NCBI GenBank assembly: GCA_003557545.1 | Contig: PWOD01000176.1 | Location: 1-10,236 of the forward strand | Reading direction: 5' to 3' | Length of the DNA stretch: 10,236 nt | Origin: a bacterium | Lineage (GTDB): Bacteria > T1Sed10-126 | Part shown: piece by piece, positions 1 through 10,236 of the stretch | Layout of the letters: every line of letters starts with the position of its first letter | Numbering within the stretch: position 1 is the first letter of the stretch | Position numbers and translations under genes: made by a program | Notes under the pieces: model-generated | Databases searched by the model: none | What the model was told of the DNA's origin: nothing | What the model saw: the letters and a program-made list of their open reading frames with translations, nothing else

Positions 1-1643
1 CCCTGGAGCTGCCGGCGATCCCCTATCTGCTGCCTGATGGCTATCTCTATACGGTGATGGAAGGAACACAGCTGGAGATTCTTCAGGCGGTGTTGATGAT
101 TGGCCTGTTAATTCTTGGGGTTGAGATTCTTGCTGAGTTTGGCAATAAAGCAACGATGAAAGTGCTGGCCCTGGTGGTTACCAGGGATATTCGACAGGAG
201 CTATATGATGATATTCTCGATCGGCCGTTGAGTTTTTTTGAAACCCGTAACGTGGGTGATTTGATCAGCCGTGTATCCTCCGATATTGACCGGCTGAAAT
301 CTGCCATTAACAGTTCTATCAGACAGCTCGGCCAGTCCCCCATGGAGATCTTGTTTGTTGTTGCTGTGGCGGTTTATGCCGCTCCGGTCCTGGCACCGGC
401 TTTTGTCGTCATTCCTCTGGTTGCGCTGGTTGTGGCCGTGGCGGGGAAAAAAATTAAGAAATACAGCCGCCAGTCACAGGATGTTCTGGGGCAGATGGTG
501 AGCTTGATGCAGGAACGGTTTTCCGGGATCAAACTGATAAAATCTCTTGGATCAGAAACTCAGGAAAAACAGTATTTCAGCCGGAAAAATGAACGATTTT
601 ACCGCAAACGCCGTCGTAAAGTTCTAGCTGATAAACTGCTAAAATCGCTGCTTCACCTGATGATTTATCTGTTTGGTGTGGCTGTCTTATATCTTGGAGG
701 GCTGATGGTCTTTGTCTGGGAAATATTAACTCCCCAGGGGCTGATTGTCTTTGCCCTGTCCCTCTTCTGGGTCTACAAACCCCTCCGCAAGGTGGCTGGC
801 GTCTATACTGAGCTGCAGGCGGCCCGGGGAGCCGCCGAACGTATTGAGGTAGTCTTTGCTGAGTCGCGCCGTGAGTATTCATTGATGACGTCAGGTGACC
901 GGGTGCTGGAGTTTACCCGGAGGATCGAGTTTTCCGATGTTAGTTTCAGCTACCCCGCGACCGATGAACCGGTATTAGCCGGGATAGATTTATCGATCGC
1001 CCGGGGGGAAAGAATCGCCTTTGTCGGGGCCAGCGGCGCCGGCAAATCAACCATGATTGATCTATTGATGCGGTTTTATGATCCGACCGACGGGAAGATT
1101 TTACTGGACGGGATTGAACTGAAGCAGTTTAACATTCAACAATTTAGAAGAATCTTTGGTCTCGTTACCCAGTCTCCGATTCTGTTTAATGATACGATCA
1201 AACAGAATATTATTTATGGTCGTTCGGACATCTCTGAAGCAGCCGTTGAACAGGCGGCCCGCCAGGCCGAAGCCCTCGATTTTATTAACAACTTACCGGA
1301 ACAGTTTGAAACGATTGTTGGTGAGCGTGGAGTCCGCTTATCCGGCGGCCAGTGTCAGCGCATAACCCTGGCCCGGGCGCTGGCCGGCCAACCCGATATC
1401 CTGGTGCTGGATGAGGCTACTTCCGATGTTGACAGCCGTTCCGAAGCGGCGATTTTACGGGCCTTACGCAACCTGCCGTCGGAGCTTACACTGGTTACCA
1501 TATCGCATGCTCTGGCTACGGTAAAAGATGTTGACAGGATAGTTGTGCTGGCAGATAAGGGTATCGAAGCGGTGGGTAATCATCAGCAGCTGCTGGACAT
1601 TTCTCCTACCTATCGCTATCTGCACAATGTTCAACAACTGTAG
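1..1643 (+). CDS. msbA: MsbA-like lipid A export ABC transporter (5' partial)
   Basis: Half-transporter with fused membrane and ATPase domains, expected to flip lipid A-core across the inner membrane as a homodimer. The frame (codons from base 3) is open to the window edge, so the N-terminus with TM1 is missing. GTG54 and ATG57 are internal: the residues before them (LPDGYLY) fit the loop after TM1. About five hydrophobic segments are visible (bases ~80-155, 340-445, 645-790), with the coupling motif SFFETRNVGDLISR between them. The ATPase domain is complete: Walker A GASGAGKST at 1026-1052, Q-loop near 1168, signature LSGGQ at 1338-1352, Walker B ILVLDEA at 1398-1418 and H-loop His at 1506. 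The family assignment is secure. The lipid A substrate is inferred from the adjacent Kdo and core genes; another lipid or drug exporter remains possible. Confidence 0.87.
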   Translation, partial: LELPAIPYLLPDGYLYTVMEGTQLEILQAVLMIGLLILGVEILAEFGNKATMKVLALVVTRDIRQELYDDILDRPLSFFETRNVGDLISRVSSDIDRLKSAINSSIRQLGQSPMEILFVVAVAVYAAPVLAPAFVVIPLVALVVAVAGKKIKKYSRQSQDVLGQMVSLMQERFSGIKLIKSLGSETQEKQYFSRKNERFYRKRRRKVLADKLLKSLLHLMIYLFGVAVLYLGGLMVFVWEILTPQGLIVFALSLFWVYKPLRKVAGVYTELQAARGAAERIEVVFAESRREYSLMTSGDRVLEFTRRIEFSDVSFSYPATDEPVLAGIDLSIARGERIAFVGASGAGKSTMIDLLMRFYDPTDGKILLDGIELKQFNIQQFRRIFGLVTQSPILFNDTIKQNIIYGRSDISEAAVEQAARQAEALDFINNLPEQFETIVGERGVRLSGGQCQRITLARALAGQPDILVLDEATSDVDSRSEAAILRALRNLPSELTLVTISHALATVKDVDRIVVLADKGIEAVGNHQQLLDISPTYRYLHNVQQL

Positions 1644-1668: not shown

Positions 1669-2664
1669 TCAGGTTATTCCTTCACGAAACAGGTCATGCA
1701 TGTGGAGCACGCCGGTCGGTCGGTGCTGTTGATCAACAATAAACAATACCGTTATTTCATTTTTTTCCATCAACTGCAGGGCTTCCGCCGCTCCCCTATC
1801 CCGGGCGATCGTCAGGGGATCAGGGGTCATTACGTCGGTTAACCGGTTGTTAAAAAATGCTTCACTGGTCTCCAGAATCCGCCGTAGATCACCGTCAGTC
1901 AGACAACCTATCAGTTTGCCCTTACTGTTGGTTATCGCCGTAATTCCCAGCCGTTTTTCAGTCATTTCAAATAAAGCTTCCTTCATCGTCGCACTCTGTT
2001 CAACCAGGGGGATATCATCGCCGCTATGCATCAGGTCCTGGACCTCCAGCAGCAGCTGTTTCCCCAGCGTTCCACCCGGATGAAATCGGGCAAAATCTTC
2101 CGGGGCAAAGTCCCGTTGATCGACCACGGTCATCGCCAGGGCATCTCCCAGGGCCAGGGTGGCGGTTGAGCTGGCAGTCGGTGCCAGGGCCAGGGGCCCG
2201 GCCTCCCGATCAACTGAAATATCAAGCACAACCCGGGCCGATTGACCCAGTATACTCTGGGGATTACCGGTCATGGCGATCAGTTCCGGGCCAATTCTCC
2301 GCAGGGGTCTCAGCAGTGATTTTACCTCTTCTGTCTCACCGCTGTAGGAAATGGCTAAGACGATATCTTCCGGACAGATCATCCCCAGGTCACCATGCAG
2401 CCCTTCAGCCGCATGCATAAAGAAGGCCGGAGTACCTGTGCTGGCAAAGGTGGCGACCAGTTTTCGTCCGATCGCTCCCGATTTACCCATACCGGTGATG
2501 ACCAGCCGGCCTGTGAGATTTCTCACCATTTCGACTGCTTCACAGAACGGTTCACCCAGCCGGGGAATCAGGCTGATGATTGCCTCCGCCTCCAGTTTCA
2601 GGGTTCTCTCGGCCCGTTTAAGCAGCTCTTTCTGTGCTGGTAAAGGGGGTTGATTGCTGTACAT
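1669..2664 (-). CDS. kdsD: D-arabinose-5-phosphate isomerase (KdsD/KpsF/GutQ family)
   Basis: Cytoplasmic enzyme interconverting ribulose-5-phosphate and arabinose-5-phosphate, the first step of Kdo synthesis. The 331 residues are close to the family length (~325). A SIS domain spans residues ~48-180, with GMGKSG at 58-63, HAAEGLHGDLG at 84-94 and SYSGETEE at 106-113. The FHPGGTLGK motif is at 194-202. Two CBS domains follow (~209-270 and ~277-329). Lys61, Glu113, Glu154 and His195 match the four active-site residues reported for E. coli KdsD (59/111/152/193) with a constant offset of two. The ATG start is backed by AAGGAGG seven bases upstream. The gene lies 12 bases after kdsA, so the two are almost certainly co-transcribed, which favours KdsD over the sugar-alcohol paralogue GutQ. 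The CBS pair may sense a nucleotide or pathway ligand (inference). Confidence 0.95.
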   Translation of the reverse strand: MYSNQPPLPAQKELLKRAERTLKLEAEAIISLIPRLGEPFCEAVEMVRNLTGRLVITGMGKSGAIGRKLVATFASTGTPAFFMHAAEGLHGDLGMICPEDIVLAISYSGETEEVKSLLRPLRRIGPELIAMTGNPQSILGQSARVVLDISVDREAGPLALAPTASSTATLALGDALAMTVVDQRDFAPEDFARFHPGGTLGKQLLLEVQDLMHSGDDIPLVEQSATMKEALFEMTEKRLGITAITNSKGKLIGCLTDGDLRRILETSEAFFNNRLTDVMTPDPLTIARDRGAAEALQLMEKNEITVLFIVDQQHRPTGVLHMHDLFREGIT

Positions 2665-2671
2665 TTCAGGG

Positions 2672-2678
2672 CCTCCTT
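2672..2678 (-). promoter_or_regulatory. Ribosome binding site of kdsD
   Basis: AAGGAGG on the - strand, seven bases before the ATG. It overlaps the kdsA stop codon (TAA, 2677-2679), an arrangement that allows translational coupling of kdsA and kdsD. Confidence 0.8.
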
Positions 2679-3546
2679 AAGAACCCGGTCTGAATTCGTC
2701 AGCCGGGTAATTAGACTGCTTTTTTTTGCGGTAGTTTCTGGTCAGCTGATGCAGCTCAACAAGGCTTTTAATAATCGGTTCGAGCTGTTTTAATGGCAGC
2801 ATATTATCGGCATCGCAGCGGGCGGTCTCCGGCTGTGGATGAATCTCCATAAAAATTCCATCGATTCCTGTGGCCACGGCGGCCCTGGCCAGGGGAAAGA
2901 TGAACTGGCGCTGCCCACCGCTGGACCCGTCCTTGCCTCCCGGCAGCTGGACGCTGTGGGTGGCGTCATAGACCACTGCCGCACCGGTTTCACGCATCTG
3001 GACGAGATTTCGCATATCAACTACCCAGCGGTTGTAGCCGAAAAAACTCCCCCGCTCGGTAACCATCAGTTGAGAGTGGTGAGCTGTCTGTCGGAGTTTC
3101 TCCACCGAATGTTTGAGCGAGTCCGGGTCAAGAAACTGCCCCTTTTTCAGATTTACAGGCAGGCCGGTCCGGGCCGCCGCTACCAGCAGATCAGTCTGCC
3201 GGCAGAGAAAGGCTGGAATTTGTAGAAAATCCACAACCTCTGCAACCGGCTCCGCCTGCTGCGGGAGATGGATATCGGTTATCAGGGGCAGCTTGTATCT
3301 CTGTTTGATCCGGGACAGGATCTTCAAACCCCGTTTGAGCCCCGGTCCCCGGTAGGAATCGAGCGAAGTCCGGTTGGCCTTGTCGAATGAGCTTTTGTAG
3401 ATCAGCGGCAGCTGGTATTTTTCCGCCAGCCGGCTGAGTTCCTCGGCTGTTTTAAACATGATCTCCTCGGTTTCAATTACACAGGGTCCGAGTATAAAGA
3501 AGAGCTGCTCAGAGTTGAAATATTTGTCAAGCTGTGAACTGTTCAA
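2677..3546 (-). CDS. kdsA: 3-deoxy-8-phosphooctulonate synthase, metal-dependent type
   Basis: Condenses phosphoenolpyruvate with arabinose-5-phosphate to Kdo-8-phosphate in the cytoplasm. The 289 residues match the family. Visible motifs are GPCVIE (20-25), KSSFDKANR (51-59), SYRGPGL (64-70), TDIHLP (90-95), PAFLCRQTDLL (111-121) and FMEIHPQPE (232-240). Cys22, His197, Glu234 and Asp245 correspond to the metal ligands of Aquifex KdsA (Cys11, His185, Glu222, Asp233) with an almost constant offset. The enzyme should therefore be metal-dependent, unlike the E. coli type, which has Asn at the Cys position. The start is TTG, chosen because AGGTGA sits six bases before it and no better start lies nearby. 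The C-terminus has a lysine-rich extension (~272-289). It is first in a pair with kdsD. Confidence 0.95.
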   Translation of the reverse strand: MNSSQLDKYFNSEQLFFILGPCVIETEEIMFKTAEELSRLAEKYQLPLIYKSSFDKANRTSLDSYRGPGLKRGLKILSRIKQRYKLPLITDIHLPQQAEPVAEVVDFLQIPAFLCRQTDLLVAAARTGLPVNLKKGQFLDPDSLKHSVEKLRQTAHHSQLMVTERGSFFGYNRWVVDMRNLVQMRETGAAVVYDATHSVQLPGGKDGSSGGQRQFIFPLARAAVATGIDGIFMEIHPQPETARCDADNMLPLKQLEPIIKSLVELHQLTRNYRKKKQSNYPADEFRPGS

Positions 3547-3734: not shown

Positions 3735-3738
3735 CGTG

Positions 3739-4275
3739 ATGAGGATGGTTGCCCAAAAAAATAAGCTGGAACCGGCGGCCCGGCGGATTAAGCTGTTTTT
3801 GTTGGATGTTGATGGTGTGATGACGGATGGTGGTATCTATCTTTATCGGGGCGGCGAAGCTAAAAAGTTCAATGTACATGACGGGCTGGGAATTAGTCTG
3901 TTAAAAAGGGCCGGCATTTCGGTGGGAATAATTACCGGAAGGGTTTCGGAAGCGGTGCGTAAACGGGCGGAGGAGCTGAAACTTGATCCGGTCTACCAGG
4001 GCTATGGAGATAAGTTGCCGGCCCTGGAAAAGATTCTCAAGGATTATACGGCCGAGGAGCTGGCCTACACCGGCGATGATCTGCTGGATATTCCGGTCTT
4101 GAAACGGGTAGGCTTAAGTTTCGCCCCGGCCAACGCCCGGCCGGAAGTTCAGAAAATTGTTGATTATTGCAGCACTAGTAGCGGCGGAGCCGGTGCCATC
4201 CGTGATATTGCTGATTGGTTATTAAAGATGCGTGGGGTTAAACAGGAGATTTTCGGAAAATATATCGATTTGTAG
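3739..4275 (+). CDS. kdsC: 3-deoxy-D-manno-octulosonate 8-phosphate phosphatase (KdsC)
   Basis: Small HAD-superfamily phosphatase that hydrolyses Kdo-8-phosphate to Kdo and phosphate; KdsC proteins act as cytoplasmic tetramers. Length 178 residues, typical of the capless C0 type. All four HAD motifs are present (numbering from ATG 3739): DVDGVMTDGG with nucleophile Asp23 and acid Asp25, ITGR with Thr66, Lys92 in YGDKLPALEK, and TGDDLLDIPVL with Asp113-Asp114. KFNVHDGLG (~43-51) is also characteristic of KdsC. The gene is divergent from kdsA and is followed 37 bases later by the kinase-heptosyltransferase gene, probably in one transcript. Starts at 3736 (GTG) and 3745 (ATG) are the alternatives. 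It completes the conversion from ribulose-5-phosphate to Kdo in this window; kdsB, needed to activate Kdo, is not here. Confidence 0.94.
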   Translation: MRMVAQKNKLEPAARRIKLFLLDVDGVMTDGGIYLYRGGEAKKFNVHDGLGISLLKRAGISVGIITGRVSEAVRKRAEELKLDPVYQGYGDKLPALEKILKDYTAEELAYTGDDLLDIPVLKRVGLSFAPANARPEVQKIVDYCSTSSGGAGAIRDIADWLLKMRGVKQEIFGKYIDL

Positions 4276-4297: not shown

Positions 4298-4303
4298 AAG
4301 GAG
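4298..4303 (+). promoter_or_regulatory. Ribosome binding site of the kinase-heptosyltransferase gene
   Basis: AAGGAG is followed by a nine-base spacer and then the GTG start at 4313. It supports the GTG as the true start of the long fusion gene. Confidence 0.7.
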
Positions 4304-4312
4304 CTGGTAGCT

Positions 4313-6157
4313 GTGTACAAGGAAGATCTTAACTGGCTGTTATCCCGGGGATTTGAGCGGCTGGAAATCGAAGGCTGGCAGCTGGTTGTTGACAGACAGT
4401 GGTTGGAACCGATAGTTGGTGAGTTTGGTAAACTGGTCGGGACCGGCTGTCTTAAAGGTGGCCGGGGAAGTCGCCACTGTGCTGTAAAAATCTCTAATAT
4501 TGGACCTCTTTTTTTGAAACAGTACCATCATGGCGGACTGCTTGCTCAACCAGGAGATACCGGTTATGAGTCTCCCCGCCGGTTTCTGGCTGAGCTGCGT
4601 GCCAACCGGGAACTGTTCGATCAAACCGGTCAGACCCCCCGCCCGGGCGGGGTTTTCTGGCGTCGCACCGGTGACAGGTTTTCCGGTTACTTTTTCTCCA
4701 AATATATTGAGTCACGGCCCTTTTCGGAGCTTCTCAGGGGGGAGTATGACGGCGGGGAAAAAATGCTTAAAGAGGCCGGTAGGTTACTGGCAAAAATTCA
4801 CCAGGTTGGGGTTGATCCGGGGGATTTTCACGTGGGTAATCTTCTTGTTACCGGAGCGGGGAAGCTGCTGGCGGTTGATTTTGATCCGGTTAAGTTTGTC
4901 ACCCCCGCCCGGCTGGTAAGAGCTCTGCGAATAGAAAGATTTAACCGCTCCCTTGCTAAAAATGGTTTTGTTAATGAGCGGCAGCAGAGTTTTGTTGCCG
5001 GGTACTGTGAGCTATTCGATTCCCGCCGGATGCAGCTGTTCAGGCTGTTTCAAAAGCCGTTCAGGGGAGTTAAAAATAGTTTCAGTGATTTTTTCTACCT
5101 GGCTAAACGGCATTCGGTCCGACAGATCGACCGAGAGAAAATTCTATTGCGGGCGCCTAACTGGGTGGGGGATGCGGTTATGTCACTGCCGGTTGTCCAG
5201 AGTCTGGCAGGGATTGATTCCCGGGGACGGATAGATGTTGTCTGCCGGGAGACTGTTGCTGCTGTTTATCAAAGCTCTCCGGCCGTGGGAAAGGTCTGGC
5301 GGCTGCCGGAGAAAACTTTTGGTCTGCCCTCAGCCGTCTCCCGCGAGGAGTATTCAGCCCTGGTGGTGCTGCCTAAATCATGGAGAACCGCTATTCAGGG
5401 CTGGAAGTCCGGGATTCCCCGCCGGTTTGGGCTGGCTACCCGGGGTCGTGGCTGGTTTTTTACCGATCGAGCTCGCTTGAATCGGCTCCACCGGGAGATT
5501 CATCATACACGGGTTTTTTATCATGCCTGTGGTGAACTGTTATCAGAACCCGGTCGACTTCCCCTGCCCCGGCTTGAGCTGTCCGCTCAATATCCGCCTG
5601 ATAAACTAACTACCCGGGTTGAGGGAGATTATATGGTGATTCATTGTGGTTCGGCCTATGGCCCCGCTAAACGCTGGCCGGTCCCTGGATTCCGTAATTT
5701 TTTACGCTTATTATTGGATGAGTATGAGTTTTCGGTGGTTGGTGTGGGTGTGGCAGCGGAGCGGGAGTTGACAGCTCAAATATTGCAGGTGGTAGCTCCC
5801 GATAAACGTTGTAATCTGGCCGGGGAGACGACTCTTCAGGAATGTATGGAGATTATCGCCGGTTCCCGGTTGACCGTGGCTAACGATTCCGGGTTGATGC
5901 ATCTATCAGCTGGCCTGGGCAGTCCTACAGTGGGAATTTTCGGTTCGACCTCACCGGAGTTGACCAGCCCGCTGGGTGAGCAGACCCGGATAATTTATGC
6001 GGATGTTGAGTGTAGCCCCTGCTTTAAAAGAGTCTGTCCGCTTCCCCGCCAGAGTTATCGCTGTTTGAAACAGATAACTCCGGAGAAAGTACTGCGAATT
6101 AGTAGAGAGTTACTGGAATTTGACCCGGACGAAGCAGAGAATCTTAATCAGTTATAA
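4313..6157 (+). CDS. waaF: Fusion of Kdo/heptose-kinase-like domain and LPS heptosyltransferase II
   Basis: A 614-residue protein with two enzymatic halves, expected at the cytoplasmic face of the inner membrane. Residues ~1-245 resemble the KdkA/WaaP/InaA LPS kinase family: glycine-rich GRGS (50-53), FLKQYHHGG with likely ATP-binding Lys69, helix Glu95 or Glu100, catalytic loop GDFHVGNLL with Asp171 and Asn176, and metal-site VDFD (188-191). Residues ~275-600 are a GT9 heptosyltransferase: LLRAPNWVGDAVMSLPVV (278-295) with likely base Asp287, GPAKRWP (450-456), NLAGETTLQE (501-510), VANDSGLMHLSAG (522-534) and GIFGSTSP (541-548). Cys567, 570, 575 and 584 recall the cysteine cluster of WaaF-type enzymes. 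A WaaF standing alone is about 340-350 residues, so the N-terminal kinase is an addition. The kinase could act on Kdo or on heptose I; which one is unresolved. Confidence 0.88.
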   Translation: MYKEDLNWLLSRGFERLEIEGWQLVVDRQWLEPIVGEFGKLVGTGCLKGGRGSRHCAVKISNIGPLFLKQYHHGGLLAQPGDTGYESPRRFLAELRANRELFDQTGQTPRPGGVFWRRTGDRFSGYFFSKYIESRPFSELLRGEYDGGEKMLKEAGRLLAKIHQVGVDPGDFHVGNLLVTGAGKLLAVDFDPVKFVTPARLVRALRIERFNRSLAKNGFVNERQQSFVAGYCELFDSRRMQLFRLFQKPFRGVKNSFSDFFYLAKRHSVRQIDREKILLRAPNWVGDAVMSLPVVQSLAGIDSRGRIDVVCRETVAAVYQSSPAVGKVWRLPEKTFGLPSAVSREEYSALVVLPKSWRTAIQGWKSGIPRRFGLATRGRGWFFTDRARLNRLHREIHHTRVFYHACGELLSEPGRLPLPRLELSAQYPPDKLTTRVEGDYMVIHCGSAYGPAKRWPVPGFRNFLRLLLDEYEFSVVGVGVAAERELTAQILQVVAPDKRCNLAGETTLQECMEIIAGSRLTVANDSGLMHLSAGLGSPTVGIFGSTSPELTSPLGEQTRIIYADVECSPCFKRVCPLPRQSYRCLKQITPEKVLRISRELLEFDPDEAENLNQL

Positions 6158-6263: not shown

Positions 6264-7214
6264 CTAATTGCCGCCCAGGTTATACCTGAAGGCAAGCCGG
6301 TGCAGGTCGCCAAAATCACCAAACGGGATGTAGGCGTAATCAAAGTCCATCCGTTCGTCAATTGTGATCCCTAATCCGGCGGTTAGACCGTTATCAACGT
6401 CATCGATCGTTCCGTCATATCCGCCTCGCAGGGCAAAGGTATCAGTTGCCTGCCATTCCAGTCCCCAGAGAAAGCCCAGCTCTTCGCTGTGAAACTGGTA
6501 ATCAAAATCGAAATGAGTCAGCATATTGACCCCGAGGTCGTGCTCCAGGTCGTAGGATATCCCAAAGCGGGTAAGCAGCGGTAGATCTTCGCTTTCGCTG
6601 TCAAACTTTGGTTGAGTTCCCAGGTTGGCCACCATGATTCCAGCGGATAGAGGCAGTTCGGGATTTTGTGAATGCCATTGTAAACCGGCATCAAGAGCAA
6701 AAGCGTTGGCTGATTCACCATCGATTTCAAGATGGATAATCTTGGCGGCAGCTCCCCAGGACCAGTTTCCCCGGTTTTCGGCAAAACCCAGGCTGGCCAC
6801 CATGTCAAAATCACTGAAACGTCCGGTCTGCTGCAGCTGTCCTCCTACCAGTTCGATTCGTTCTACCGAACCATAGTCTAAGTAGCGCAGCCCGCCGGCT
6901 ATCCGGTGATCGGGTGAAAGACCGTGGATATAATCGACATTACCGTAGGAAATATCCTCCACCAGCTGCTGGTAGGTAAGCTCCAGATCACGATCGGTGG
7001 CAAAGGCCAGGCCGGCCGGATTATAATGGAGTGCCGCAGGTCCGGCTATTGAAGCCACTCCGGCCCCGCCCATGGCAGAGTTGGCTGCGCCGGGGGCGAT
7101 TCTCAAGACCTCGGCGGAAGTTTGTCCACCATCGCCGGCCAGTACTGGCAGCTGGTAACCGGCAATCAGGCCGATCATCGCGGCTACTAACATAAGTTTA
7201 AAAAATAGTTTCAT
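6264..7214 (-). CDS. PorV/PorQ-family outer-membrane beta-barrel protein
   Basis: A 316-residue exported protein. Residues 1-26 form a signal peptide: MKLFFK, then a hydrophobic core, with likely cleavage after PVLA and before GDGG. The mature N-terminus has the family hallmark: LRIAPGAANSAMGGAGVAS followed by ALHYNPAGLA (~37-70), the FadL-like hatch of PorV/PorQ and UPF0164 proteins. The rest is alternating amphipathic strands with many aromatic and glycine residues, ending in HRLAFRYNLGGN, as expected for a ~14-stranded barrel. An in-frame TTG at 7238 would extend it by eight residues, but AAGGAG (7226-7231) lies inside that extension and 10-11 bases before ATG 7214, so ATG is chosen. In Bacteroidota, PorV carries type IX cargo to the attachment complex. 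Here the gene follows a putative cargo by 47 bases. The exact role is inferred. Confidence 0.8.
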   Translation of the reverse strand: MKLFFKLMLVAAMIGLIAGYQLPVLAGDGGQTSAEVLRIAPGAANSAMGGAGVASIAGPAALHYNPAGLAFATDRDLELTYQQLVEDISYGNVDYIHGLSPDHRIAGGLRYLDYGSVERIELVGGQLQQTGRFSDFDMVASLGFAENRGNWSWGAAAKIIHLEIDGESANAFALDAGLQWHSQNPELPLSAGIMVANLGTQPKFDSESEDLPLLTRFGISYDLEHDLGVNMLTHFDFDYQFHSEELGFLWGLEWQATDTFALRGGYDGTIDDVDNGLTAGLGITIDERMDFDYAYIPFGDFGDLHRLAFRYNLGGN

Positions 7215-7225
7215 TGTAATCTTAG

Positions 7226-7231
7226 CTCCTT
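7226..7231 (-). promoter_or_regulatory. Ribosome binding site of the barrel-protein gene
   Basis: AAGGAG on the - strand, 11 bases before ATG 7214. It rules out the upstream TTG as the main start. Confidence 0.6.
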
Positions 7232-7252
7232 TATACAAGAGGTAATCAACCT

Positions 7253-7276
7253 ATTATCGTATTATCGTATTATAGC
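7253..7276. repeat. Tandem octamer repeat across the stop of the surface-protein gene
   Basis: ATTATCGT occurs at 7253-7260 and 7261-7268, followed by the degenerate copy ATTATAGC at 7269-7276. On the - strand it encodes the last residues Ile-Ile-Arg, the TAA stop and the start of the gap to the next gene. Confidence 0.6.
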
Positions 7277-7531
7277 AATTCTACCGGTTTCAACATCACC
7301 TGTCGAGCTTTCTTTCAGGCGATAAATATAATGTCCACTGCGCACCCGGTTTCCAGAATTATTCCGCACGTCCCAGACGTAGGGATCGTCGGTGGTTCGG
7401 GCGTCAAAGATCCGTTCGCCGGTGATGGTGAACAGTTCGATTTCAAAGGGTCCGTCGTTGAATGAGTTGAATTCGAAACGGATTGTCCCGTCGTCGGAAC
7501 GGAAGGGAACCGGCCCGACCTGGGTGAAGCG
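7262..7531 (-). other. FlgD-like / type-IX-like C-terminal domain
   Basis: The final ~89 residues contain VGPVPFRSDDGTIRFEF, IELFTITGERIF, YVWDVRNNSGNRVRSGHYIY and a GRIAIIR end. This is the pattern of FlgD Ig-like and type A sorting domains, which serve as secretion and attachment signals in type IX substrates. The similarity is recognised by eye; sorting function is inferred. Confidence 0.7.
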
Positions 7532-10236
7532 TAAACCCCGGCCACCTTCGATAAACTTGGCGGTGACTGTTTTGTCGGTCACCATGGGCAGCTGGTCCCG
7601 GGATCTTGTGCTGTTAAACTGATAGTCACTGCTCCATTCGCTAAATGACCAGCCTGAGCCCGGACGGGCCCGCAATTGTGCCGGATCGCCAGCCGGGAGT
7701 TCTACCGGGGCTGTGTAGGTCCGGTTGTTCACCATGACCTCCCCCTCACCGATTAGATTAATTGTTAAAAGCCGGCTGGTCTGGTCAAACTGAGCGGTCA
7801 ATCTTTGTTGATAGTTGACCACCAGCTCCTCGCTGGTTGCGCTGCTGGTCAGGGCCTCAGACCAGCTGCCAAACCCCCAGAATTCTGCCGGTACCGCTTC
7901 GACTGAGATCGTTTCGCCGGCGGGAACCCATAGTTCCCCGGACACTGGCTCTTCGTTAAGCAGCACAGTTCCGTTCCCCTCGATATTGATTGTTAATGGT
8001 ATCTGCTGGGCGGGTATCATCCAGCTTGTCGGGTCAGAGGTTGATAGGTATGGATAACCGTTGTTTTCGTCGAAGGCGGTCCGGTTGATTGTCCAGCCCG
8101 CAGCGATAAAGGTTTCAATATTCTGCATATCACTGGTGGGCAGTGGGTAACCGCCGTCACTCTGATCTGTTTGACTGGCTTCGACATCCCAAAAACTGTT
8201 CTGCACTGCGGCTTCCCAGCCCCGGCTGCCAATCAATCCGCCAACTGAGTACAGGCCGGAAAGTTCGGCGGCGGCAAAGGAGTTTTCAAGGCTGCCGGCC
8301 AGCAGCTCTCCGACCACTCCTCCCACTTCAAAGGTTCCGTCAATCTTTCCAACAGCATAGCTATTTTTAATTGTGGATTCACGGGATTTACCGACTACCC
8401 CCCCTACTCTCGTATTACCATCAAGATCAATCTGGGAGCTGATAGCGGCAACTGCCCCCAGATAAAGCTCCCCGGTCAGACCACCGACATTATTGTTCCC
8501 GGTCAGGGAACCTTTAACTGAATTATGGGATAGGTTGGCATGGCGTGTATAGCCGGCCAGTAAAGCTGTGTTGTCCCGGCCGGTCACAGTCGCTGCTTTC
8601 AGGTGAAGATTTGAGATCTCCGCCGCTGCTCCATCAGGATCACCGGTTACTACCCCGAACAGACCAACATCATCCGAGGAGGGTCGATCTATTTGCAGAT
8701 CGTAAACTGTTCTGTCATTACCCTGGAAAACTCCTGAAAAGGGATTTTCTGTGCTGCCCAGGGGCTGCCATCCGTCCGGGGTGTCGACAAGATTGCTGTA
8801 GCCTGCTGTTTGTGAAGATAGATTGTTTTCCAGGCTGTAATGGGCATATGGTGCCCGCTCTATTTCAGTTAGTTGATACCAGTCGGTAATTCTGTAGGGA
8901 TGTTCTGGGCTGCCCAGACCACCGTCAAAATTCAATACGGTAATCGTTCGGGTTTCACTGAAATCTCCACTGGTAACGGTCAGTTCGGCACCGTCGTCTA
9001 ACAGTTCGGTCCGGTATTCAAAAGGAACCTGCTGCCAGCGGCCGGGATCGACCCGAATTGAGTTGGTGTCCACCACCTGGTCATTAACTCTGAGTTCGAC
9101 CGTCTGTCGGTAGCTATGGTCGTCTATATTGGTAAATCGTCCATAAACTCTGATCTTTTCGCCGGCGGCTGTGGCAAACCGGCTGGGTTCATCAATGATC
9201 TCCACATCAAACCGTGGGGAGCGCAGTAGCGACAGTCCATGGAAACGGGGAGTTGTCTGGTAGTCGGAGGTTTGAAGGTCGATCCGCACCTGGTAGGTGG
9301 TGTGAAAATCTTCCCAGCCAATCTCTACGTTCGACTGGCCGGTCAACTGAATCTGATTACTATGTTCTTCCGCCGGAGTCCCGGGACTTCCGATTACGGT
9401 GACCCAGATCTGTTCTCCGTTTAGCTGATAATCGATACTATCCAGCATCGCCCGGGTGGAGAGCATCTGCCGTTTATCAGAAAGTAGGAAGCCCTGGTTT
9501 GAACGGCGGGTCACATTAACTTTTAATTCGTGTAAATAGGGGGTTACCTCGGTATTCGCCGTGGCGAAATCCTGGAGAATCCAGAGATATTTACCGGTCA
9601 GGTCATCCCCGGTTGAGATATTCGGAACTGACTGCCCATTCTGGGCAATCATCCAGTCACTGTCATGGGGTGGTGTGTCCGGATTGTCTGACACCGCGGT
9701 TCTAAAAGTTATCTGGGTTCCGGCCGGTTCAGTCGCCGTCCACTCGATAGTTGGAATAACCTCAACCTCGGGAATATCCAGCAGGTGGGGGTTGTCAATT
9801 CGCCGGCTTTCTACCTTGTCAAGCACCTCAATTATCACCTGTCCATGGCCGTGATTGATCCCACTTTCAGTTAGCCCATCGTTAACCCCGTCGGTATAGG
9901 AAGATCCGCCTCCCCCGGCGTCGGCCCGGTTAGTTGTAGAGTTACGGGCCCCCATCTGGCCGAACCGTCCGCCCCCATCTCCCCCTCGGACGTTGGTGCT
10001 AGTCGTTTGAGCAGAAGTAGAGTTTGTATTGCCGCCGCGTCCACCAACACCAAACTGGCCATCCAGTTCACTGTTATCATTGGTGCAGAAGCCACCTTCT
10101 CCTCCTTCGTTGGGCATACCGCCCAGTCCTCCCCACTGGGTCATATTCCCGGCAGAACCACCGCCACCACCATACCAGCCCCCTCCGCCGGCACCGCCTC
10201 CGCCGTCACGCCGTGAAAGGGATCCGTTACCGGCTC
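7262..10236 (-). CDS. Large modular secreted surface protein (5' partial)
   Basis: The frame is open through the right edge (first full codon at 10234), so at least 990 residues are present and the N-terminus is missing. ATG 10144 lies inside the glycine-rich domain and is not the start. Domain order (residue 1 = ATG 10144): glycine-rich ALK-like domain, to ~107; two related beta-sandwich modules (~130-213 and ~230-308) each ending Y..(20)..TPxxHxL; a CARDB-like Ig module (~317-404); a GLUG beta-helix region with the usual lead-in GGLGSPEHPYRI (~408-655); two InlB-like B repeats (~715-787, 791-866); and a FlgD-like C-terminal domain (~872-960). No catalytic motif was seen, so an adhesin, matrix or surface-layer role is inferred. 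It is followed by the PorV-like gene, probably in the same transcript. Confidence 0.8.
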   Translation of the reverse strand, partial: AGNGSLSRRDGGGGAGGGGWYGGGGGSAGNMTQWGGLGGMPNEGGEGGFCTNDNSELDGQFGVGGRGGNTNSTSAQTTSTNVRGGDGGGRFGQMGARNSTTNRADAGGGGSSYTDGVNDGLTESGINHGHGQVIIEVLDKVESRRIDNPHLLDIPEVEVIPTIEWTATEPAGTQITFRTAVSDNPDTPPHDSDWMIAQNGQSVPNISTGDDLTGKYLWILQDFATANTEVTPYLHELKVNVTRRSNQGFLLSDKRQMLSTRAMLDSIDYQLNGEQIWVTVIGSPGTPAEEHSNQIQLTGQSNVEIGWEDFHTTYQVRIDLQTSDYQTTPRFHGLSLLRSPRFDVEIIDEPSRFATAAGEKIRVYGRFTNIDDHSYRQTVELRVNDQVVDTNSIRVDPGRWQQVPFEYRTELLDDGAELTVTSGDFSETRTITVLNFDGGLGSPEHPYRITDWYQLTEIERAPYAHYSLENNLSSQTAGYSNLVDTPDGWQPLGSTENPFSGVFQGNDRTVYDLQIDRPSSDDVGLFGVVTGDPDGAAAEISNLHLKAATVTGRDNTALLAGYTRHANLSHNSVKGSLTGNNNVGGLTGELYLGAVAAISSQIDLDGNTRVGGVVGKSRESTIKNSYAVGKIDGTFEVGGVVGELLAGSLENSFAAAELSGLYSVGGLIGSRGWEAAVQNSFWDVEASQTDQSDGGYPLPTSDMQNIETFIAAGWTINRTAFDENNGYPYLSTSDPTSWMIPAQQIPLTINIEGNGTVLLNEEPVSGELWVPAGETISVEAVPAEFWGFGSWSEALTSSATSEELVVNYQQRLTAQFDQTSRLLTINLIGEGEVMVNNRTYTAPVELPAGDPAQLRARPGSGWSFSEWSSDYQFNSTRSRDQLPMVTDKTVTAKFIEGGRGLRFTQVGPVPFRSDDGTIRFEFNSFNDGPFEIELFTITGERIFDARTTDDPYVWDVRNNSGNRVRSGHYIYRLKESSTGDVETGRIAIIR
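7547..8002 (-). repeat. Two InlB-like B repeats
   Basis: Two ~75-residue modules share the order xLTINxxGxGxVxxN, a PAGxxxxxxAxP segment, a WxFxxWS core and an ending VTAxF. The first begins PLTINIEGNGTVLLN and the second RLLTINLIGEGEVMVN. This is the divergent InlB B-repeat fold common in bacterial surface proteins. Confidence 0.75.
8180..8677 (-). repeat. GLUG-type repeats with a 27-residue period
   Basis: VGGLTGE, VGGVVGK, VGGVVGE and VGGLIGS begin at residues 553, 580, 607 and 634, an exact 27-residue (81-base) period. Diverged copies VGLFGVV (493) and ALLAGY (527) precede them. Between copies lie NSYAVGKIDG and NSFAAAELSG, the canonical GLUG linker. The region is expected to form a right-handed beta-helix. 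Confidence 0.8.
9824..10236 (-). other. Glycine-rich ALK-like domain (partial)
   Basis: About 137 residues dominated by Gly, Asn, Ser and Thr, with GGGGAGGGGWYGGGGG near the edge, spaced GG pairs, and the ending ADAGGGGSSYTDGV, then GINHGHGQVIIEVL. The GGGGSSY plus GxGxVxI ending is typical of the glycine-rich domain shared with animal ALK/LTK receptors and of bacterial surface proteins. Only one Cys (residue 20) is visible. Confidence 0.6.

Follow-up and report, generated by a model that had tools for sequence, protein, structure and literature searches.

A KdkA-like kinase domain and a WaaF-type heptosyltransferase domain encoded by one open reading frame in a soda-lake bacterium

Does the gene at positions 4313..6157 (+ strand) of a contig from the bacterial phylum T1Sed10-126 encode one protein that joins a kinase of the lipopolysaccharide (LPS) core to a heptosyltransferase, and, if so, on which sugars would the two halves act and are their activities coupled? 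T1Sed10-126 is listed as a phylum with two genomes, 2.15-2.2 Mb in size, from the sediment of hypersaline soda lakes, for which the name 'Candidatus Busufiota' is used (PMC11382960). Other T1Sed10-126 bins are mentioned in the literature, among them W1.7 of the Bochnia salt mine (PMC10104926). The window analyzed here, 10,236 nucleotides long, is the entire contig C73 (10.2 kb) of a 2.15 Mb draft genome (G000; 239 contigs, 91.9% complete), and the comparison genome (MAG T1Sed10_126, G001), which belongs to a sister genus, is the single other genome of the phylum that was compared. We consider it probable that the gene is a genuine lineage-specific fusion of a KdkA-like kinase and WaaF, resulting in a bifunctional inner-core enzyme in which a helix of the kinase has become the linker.

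The gene, its frame and its neighbours

The frame begins with a GTG codon at 4313, located 9 nt downstream of the Shine-Dalgarno-like sequence AAGGAG (4298..4303, +), and continues without internal stops until the stop codon that ends at 6157, thus encoding 614 amino acids. The first-pass annotation of this DNA had described an uninterrupted frame across both domains and a good ribosome site, and both descriptions hold. This length is not due to chance, since 200 shuffles of the window gave no stop-free frame longer than 283 aa. Promoter and terminator scans gave results at chance level only.

Could the long frame nevertheless be an artefact, created by a chimeric contig or by a sequencing error that removed a stop codon between two genes? 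The host genome is a draft of which the window is one complete contig, and the sole relative compared has two genes, as this explanation would predict. However, a lone lost stop would leave behind the start codon and ribosome site of waaF, and no in-frame ATG, GTG or TTG was found at the junction, between codons 240 and 279. As codons 241-278 are devoid of start codons, a state that one sequencing error would not produce, the frameshift or lost-stop reading was set aside, and WaaF could hardly be made alone. GC and GC3 are similar in the two halves and the neighbouring genes, and composition is even across the junction. Furthermore, an msbA gene, which lies downstream of waaF in the sister genome, is found at the opposite end of the same contig, fitting a rearranged locus, and no standalone copy of waaF or of the kinase gene was found elsewhere in the bin. 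Taken with these points, an artefact appears very improbable.

The gene lies among genes for Kdo synthesis. The Kdo-8-phosphate phosphatase gene kdsC (3736..4275, +) ends 37 nt upstream and is 68% identical to its counterpart in the sister genome, while on the opposite strand kdsA (Kdo-8-phosphate synthase; 2677..3546, -; 63% identical) and kdsD (arabinose-5-phosphate isomerase with SIS and CBS domains; 1669..2664, -; 74% identical) are found. The msbA-type ABC transporter gene (3..1643, +), the 5' end of which is cut by the contig end, is 71% identical to the gene adjoining waaF in the sister genome. Because the window carries kdsA, kdsC and kdsD and the host genome also carries waaA, the host very probably makes Kdo. 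It probably also makes ADP-heptose, since an HldE-like heptose kinase, homologous to the kinase domain of HldE, is present in the genome (330 bits, cut-off 345).

The remainder of the window encodes a PorV-like outer-membrane protein (6264-7238, -) and a glycine-rich InlB-repeat/GLUG protein (7262-10234, -) ending in a weak CHU_C (type IX secretion) tail. On another locus of the host genome (L088), subtilisin-like proteases are followed by tails of a similar kind, which suggests that a type IX secretion system exists in this phylum.

The two domains and their probable acceptors

Judged by its sequence, the C-terminal half (about aa 269-614; 5117..6154, +) is a WaaF-type heptosyltransferase of family GT9. 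Residues 276-601 cover positions 1-338 of the 339 of TIGR02195 (LPS heptosyltransferase II; 1.4e-55), scoring 188.8 bits against an equivalog cut-off of 134.6, and the domain also matches PF01075 (1e-33) and the solved E. coli WaaF structure 1psw (1e-27). The catalytic Asp (D287) and the donor-binding Lys (K453) and Asp (D525) of the GT9 fold align with the 1psw motifs WVGD, GPAKRWP and NDSGLMH. The profile search thereby confirmed the earlier assignment of this half to GT9 and WaaF. The active-site residues that had been named for the protein (K69, D171, N176, D189, D191, D287, K453 and D525) were all found at those positions.

The N-terminal half (aa 1-265; 4313..5107, +) is predicted to be a KdkA-like kinase of the Kdo/WaaP superfamily, with the catalytic set K69, E94, D171, N176 and D189. 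Residues 1-272 match the KdkA model NF002475 (E 7.6e-13) with a score of 48 bits, far below the curated cut-off of 142 bits and the 309 bits of a known true KdkA (locus L066). The gathering score of the Pfam Kdo family (PF06293), 21.3, is just equalled by the kinase domain alone (21.3) and missed by the whole protein (19.6); support from the profile and from the fold is stronger. Both low scores count against our preferred reading. In an alignment of 31 kinases D189 never varies, and at least 90% of the sequences keep D171 and N176. The AlphaFold model of this half is confident (pLDDT 89.5) and finds its best structural matches in PRPK/Bud32 (Z 16-17.5) and WaaP (6dfl; Z 16.3 over 221 residues), the latter giving the longest alignment in the best 16 matches. 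In a tree of 32 kinases, which has long branches and is thus rough in its details, the fused kinase and its sister-genus orthologue are joined at full support within a 17-row clade (support 99/97) that includes the true KdkA and leaves out E. coli WaaP and WaaY. The proposal that this half is an LPS-core kinase is thus upheld by profile, predicted fold and tree. As to the choice between a Kdo kinase (KdkA) and a heptose kinase (WaaP), which had been left undecided, alignment and tree place it on the KdkA side of the superfamily rather than on the WaaP side, although its divergence leaves it below the KdkA cut-off.

A genuine fusion could also contain a kinase that phosphorylates heptose I or II in the manner of WaaP or WaaY, in which case the two domains would act on adjacent sugars of the same acceptor, one of them (WaaF or the kinase) providing the substrate of the other, and a coupling of the two activities would become more plausible. 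The identity of the partner favours this, as heptose kinases naturally use the product of WaaF as their substrate, and so does the match of the model to the WaaP structure. In addition, the host genome carries at least three further kinases of the Kdo/WaaP superfamily, one on L044/L088 (C104; 307-1110, -) and two on L089 (C100; 2512-3255 and 1567-2385, both -), so that the fused kinase need not be the Kdo kinase and the Kdo step could fall to one of the others; this, too, weighs against our preferred reading. On the other hand, the WaaP heptose I kinase model NF011703 gave no match to the fusion protein with an E limit of 1, the WaaY model NF007684 gave E 0.08 only, far from the value obtained with KdkA, the tree places the kinase with KdkA, and the motif K-x-Y-x-x-G-G-L, common to the fused kinase and the true KdkA, is absent from E. 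coli WaaP. The kinase gene moreover keeps its position after kdsC in both genera. We therefore regard a heptose kinase as unlikely. One of the further superfamily kinase genes of the host genome named above is convergent with a heptosyltransferase I gene cut at a contig edge.

It is still less likely, in our view, that one domain of a genuine fusion has come to use a different sugar or acceptor (for instance another ADP-sugar or another core sugar) or merely serves as a scaffold. Both halves are divergent from characterized enzymes, and the HldE-like protein falls just below its cut-off, as such a drift would allow; against it, every catalytic residue tested is kept in both halves and the WaaF half passes its equivalog cut-off.

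Origin, linker and rarity of the probable fusion

In the sister genome the two proteins are encoded by separate genes on different contigs. The kinase gene (contig PWHN01000093; 265 aa) follows kdsC and is divergent from kdsA-kdsD, the same layout as in the window, while waaF (342 aa) lies ahead of msbA. BLAST aligns residues 4-265 of the fusion with residues 5-263 of the 265 of the kinase (42% identical), and residues 269-600 with residues 11-340 of WaaF (55% identical). By these alignments the fusion consists of two complete proteins joined end to end, with about three residues unmatched between them. The inner-core genes that occupy two places in the sister genome are now together, since the window also carries msbA, kdsD, kdsA and kdsC next to the fused kinase and waaF. 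With an E limit of 0.001 the fusion protein matched no other site of the host genome, and no second copy of either half was found; the other two GT9 genes of that genome are different ones. In each of the two genomes of the phylum an argS-like gene is immediately followed by the gene of a third GT9 protein (L042, 3-1091, -; L043, 1105-2601, +; 46% identical).

The junction coincides with the kinase's C-terminal helix (about aa 241-268; 5033..5116, +), which sequence and model suggest to be amphipathic. No stretch of the fusion protein has a higher hydrophobic moment than residues 243-260, which share the top value, and in both genera many residues of the kinase tail are basic or aromatic. We infer that the tail was a membrane-surface helix that the fusion turned into an inter-domain linker. 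The model of the whole protein contains two confident domains and leaves their relative placement loose (pTM 0.64), with residues 245-271 of the linker at a pLDDT of about 40, a point against our preferred reading. A basic-aromatic C-terminal stretch, possibly membrane-binding, is also common to other kinases (L034, 7599-8453; L058, 1495-2361; L065, 1111-2190; L033, 8007-8804), examples of such tails being WRLKWRLSDLL, WRIKWKFSDIL and WWTKNRISDLI.

The fusion was seen in one genome only, which further counts against the proposed explanation. Our survey covered about 780 genomes, 386 spread over the domain and 398 from the phylum of the true-KdkA genome, and examined long frames with the strongest kinase matches, among the matches listed; within this scope no second kinase-GT9 fusion was found, and weaker long-frame matches resemble ordinary protein kinases. 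Further kinase-GT9 fusions may exist beyond the matches listed. The long kinase frames considered as candidates (L055/L081, L082, L083, L084, L087, L131, L132 and L141-L146) lack a GT9 half, many of them being tandem kinases or owing their extra length merely to open upstream sequence, and two long GT9 frames, L006 and L035, were rejected as they have no kinase joined. Proteins of 510-840 aa with two Kdo/WaaP-superfamily kinases in tandem (L055, L083, L084, L087, L131 and L132) occur in several unrelated genomes. A scan of genome contigs returned only the sister-genus kinase and two Nitrospirae kinases, each a separate gene, and the plasmid collection contained WaaF halves only and no fusion. 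Adjacency of the two gene types is frequent: among the matches listed, 63 distinct frames carry a kinase, and 19 of these overlap a GT9 frame on the same strand or have one at most 100 nt away, as in the GT9-kinase-GT9 arrangement of G037, and several such neighbours are WaaF-like. The two functions are therefore often linked.

A possible bifunctional enzyme and related systems

The explanation we favour is that a complete KdkA-like kinase gene located 3' of kdsC and a complete waaF became one gene, the end of the former meeting the start of the latter. The product would be one cytoplasmic enzyme, probably bound to the membrane surface, with two separate active sites. Its N-terminal domain would carry out the ATP-dependent phosphorylation of an inner-core hydroxyl, most likely on the Kdo of Kdo-lipid A, and its C-terminal domain would transfer heptose from ADP-heptose to heptose I. 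The amphipathic linker helix would probably hold both domains at the inner membrane, near the growing LPS.

Pasteurella KdkA phosphorylates Kdo I at position 4 and competes with the second Kdo; the Haemophilus phosphate likewise takes the place of the second Kdo (PMC5577588, PMC3078933). If the fused kinase acts on Kdo as in Pasteurella, the order of action would be kinase, WaaC and WaaF, so that a separate enzyme would work between the two fused activities and simple substrate channelling is not implied. The suggestion of the first-pass annotation that the fusion couples phosphorylation with heptosylation and shows their order is thus unsupported: the order of domains says nothing on the order of reactions, heptosyltransferase I (WaaC) must intervene if the kinase uses Kdo, and the sister genus encodes the proteins separately. 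It seems doubtful that the enzyme, with its linker helix keeping it at the membrane, physically couples its kinase step to the addition of heptose II on a single lipid A-core acceptor; were this the case, phosphate content and core extension would be set together.

Fusions point to enzymes of the same path, and here a KdkA-like kinase is tied to heptose addition in a phylum known, in this analysis, solely from assembled environmental genomes. The locus suggests that the LPS core of this lineage contains Kdo and probably heptose and is phosphorylated, and it offers a single small protein that would allow core phosphorylation and heptosylation to be assayed jointly. Since the two enzyme families are already well known and the sister genus manages without the fusion, the biological effect may be small.

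The open literature searched yielded no description of a fusion between a KdkA-like kinase and WaaF, most subscription papers lying outside the search. The closest system in organization is ORF6 of Klebsiella O7, in which a methyltransferase-kinase is joined to two GT2 modules (PMC11231755). There, too, one polypeptide combines a kinase of LPS assembly with glycosyltransferases, but it functions in O-antigen assembly and uses unrelated kinase and glycosyltransferase families; WbdD, a kinase-methyltransferase of O-antigen assembly, is named beside it as a related case, its domains also being unrelated. With the Kdo kinase KdkA of Haemophilus and Pasteurella the fused kinase shares its clade, the KxYxxGGL motif, the catalytic residues and the Kdo-synthesis gene neighbours, differing by its low score and its attachment to a glycosyltransferase. 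The GT9 half resembles ADP-heptose:LPS heptosyltransferase II (WaaF/RfaF) over its full length and in its catalytic Asp/Lys/Asp motifs, but sits behind a kinase and has no start codon of its own. The T1Sed10_126 orthologues correspond to both halves over their whole length, with the kinase gene in the same place, and differ in being two genes. The parts thus appear to be known enzymes in a new arrangement, a member of the WaaF family and a KdkA-like kinase that the cut-off leaves outside NF002475.
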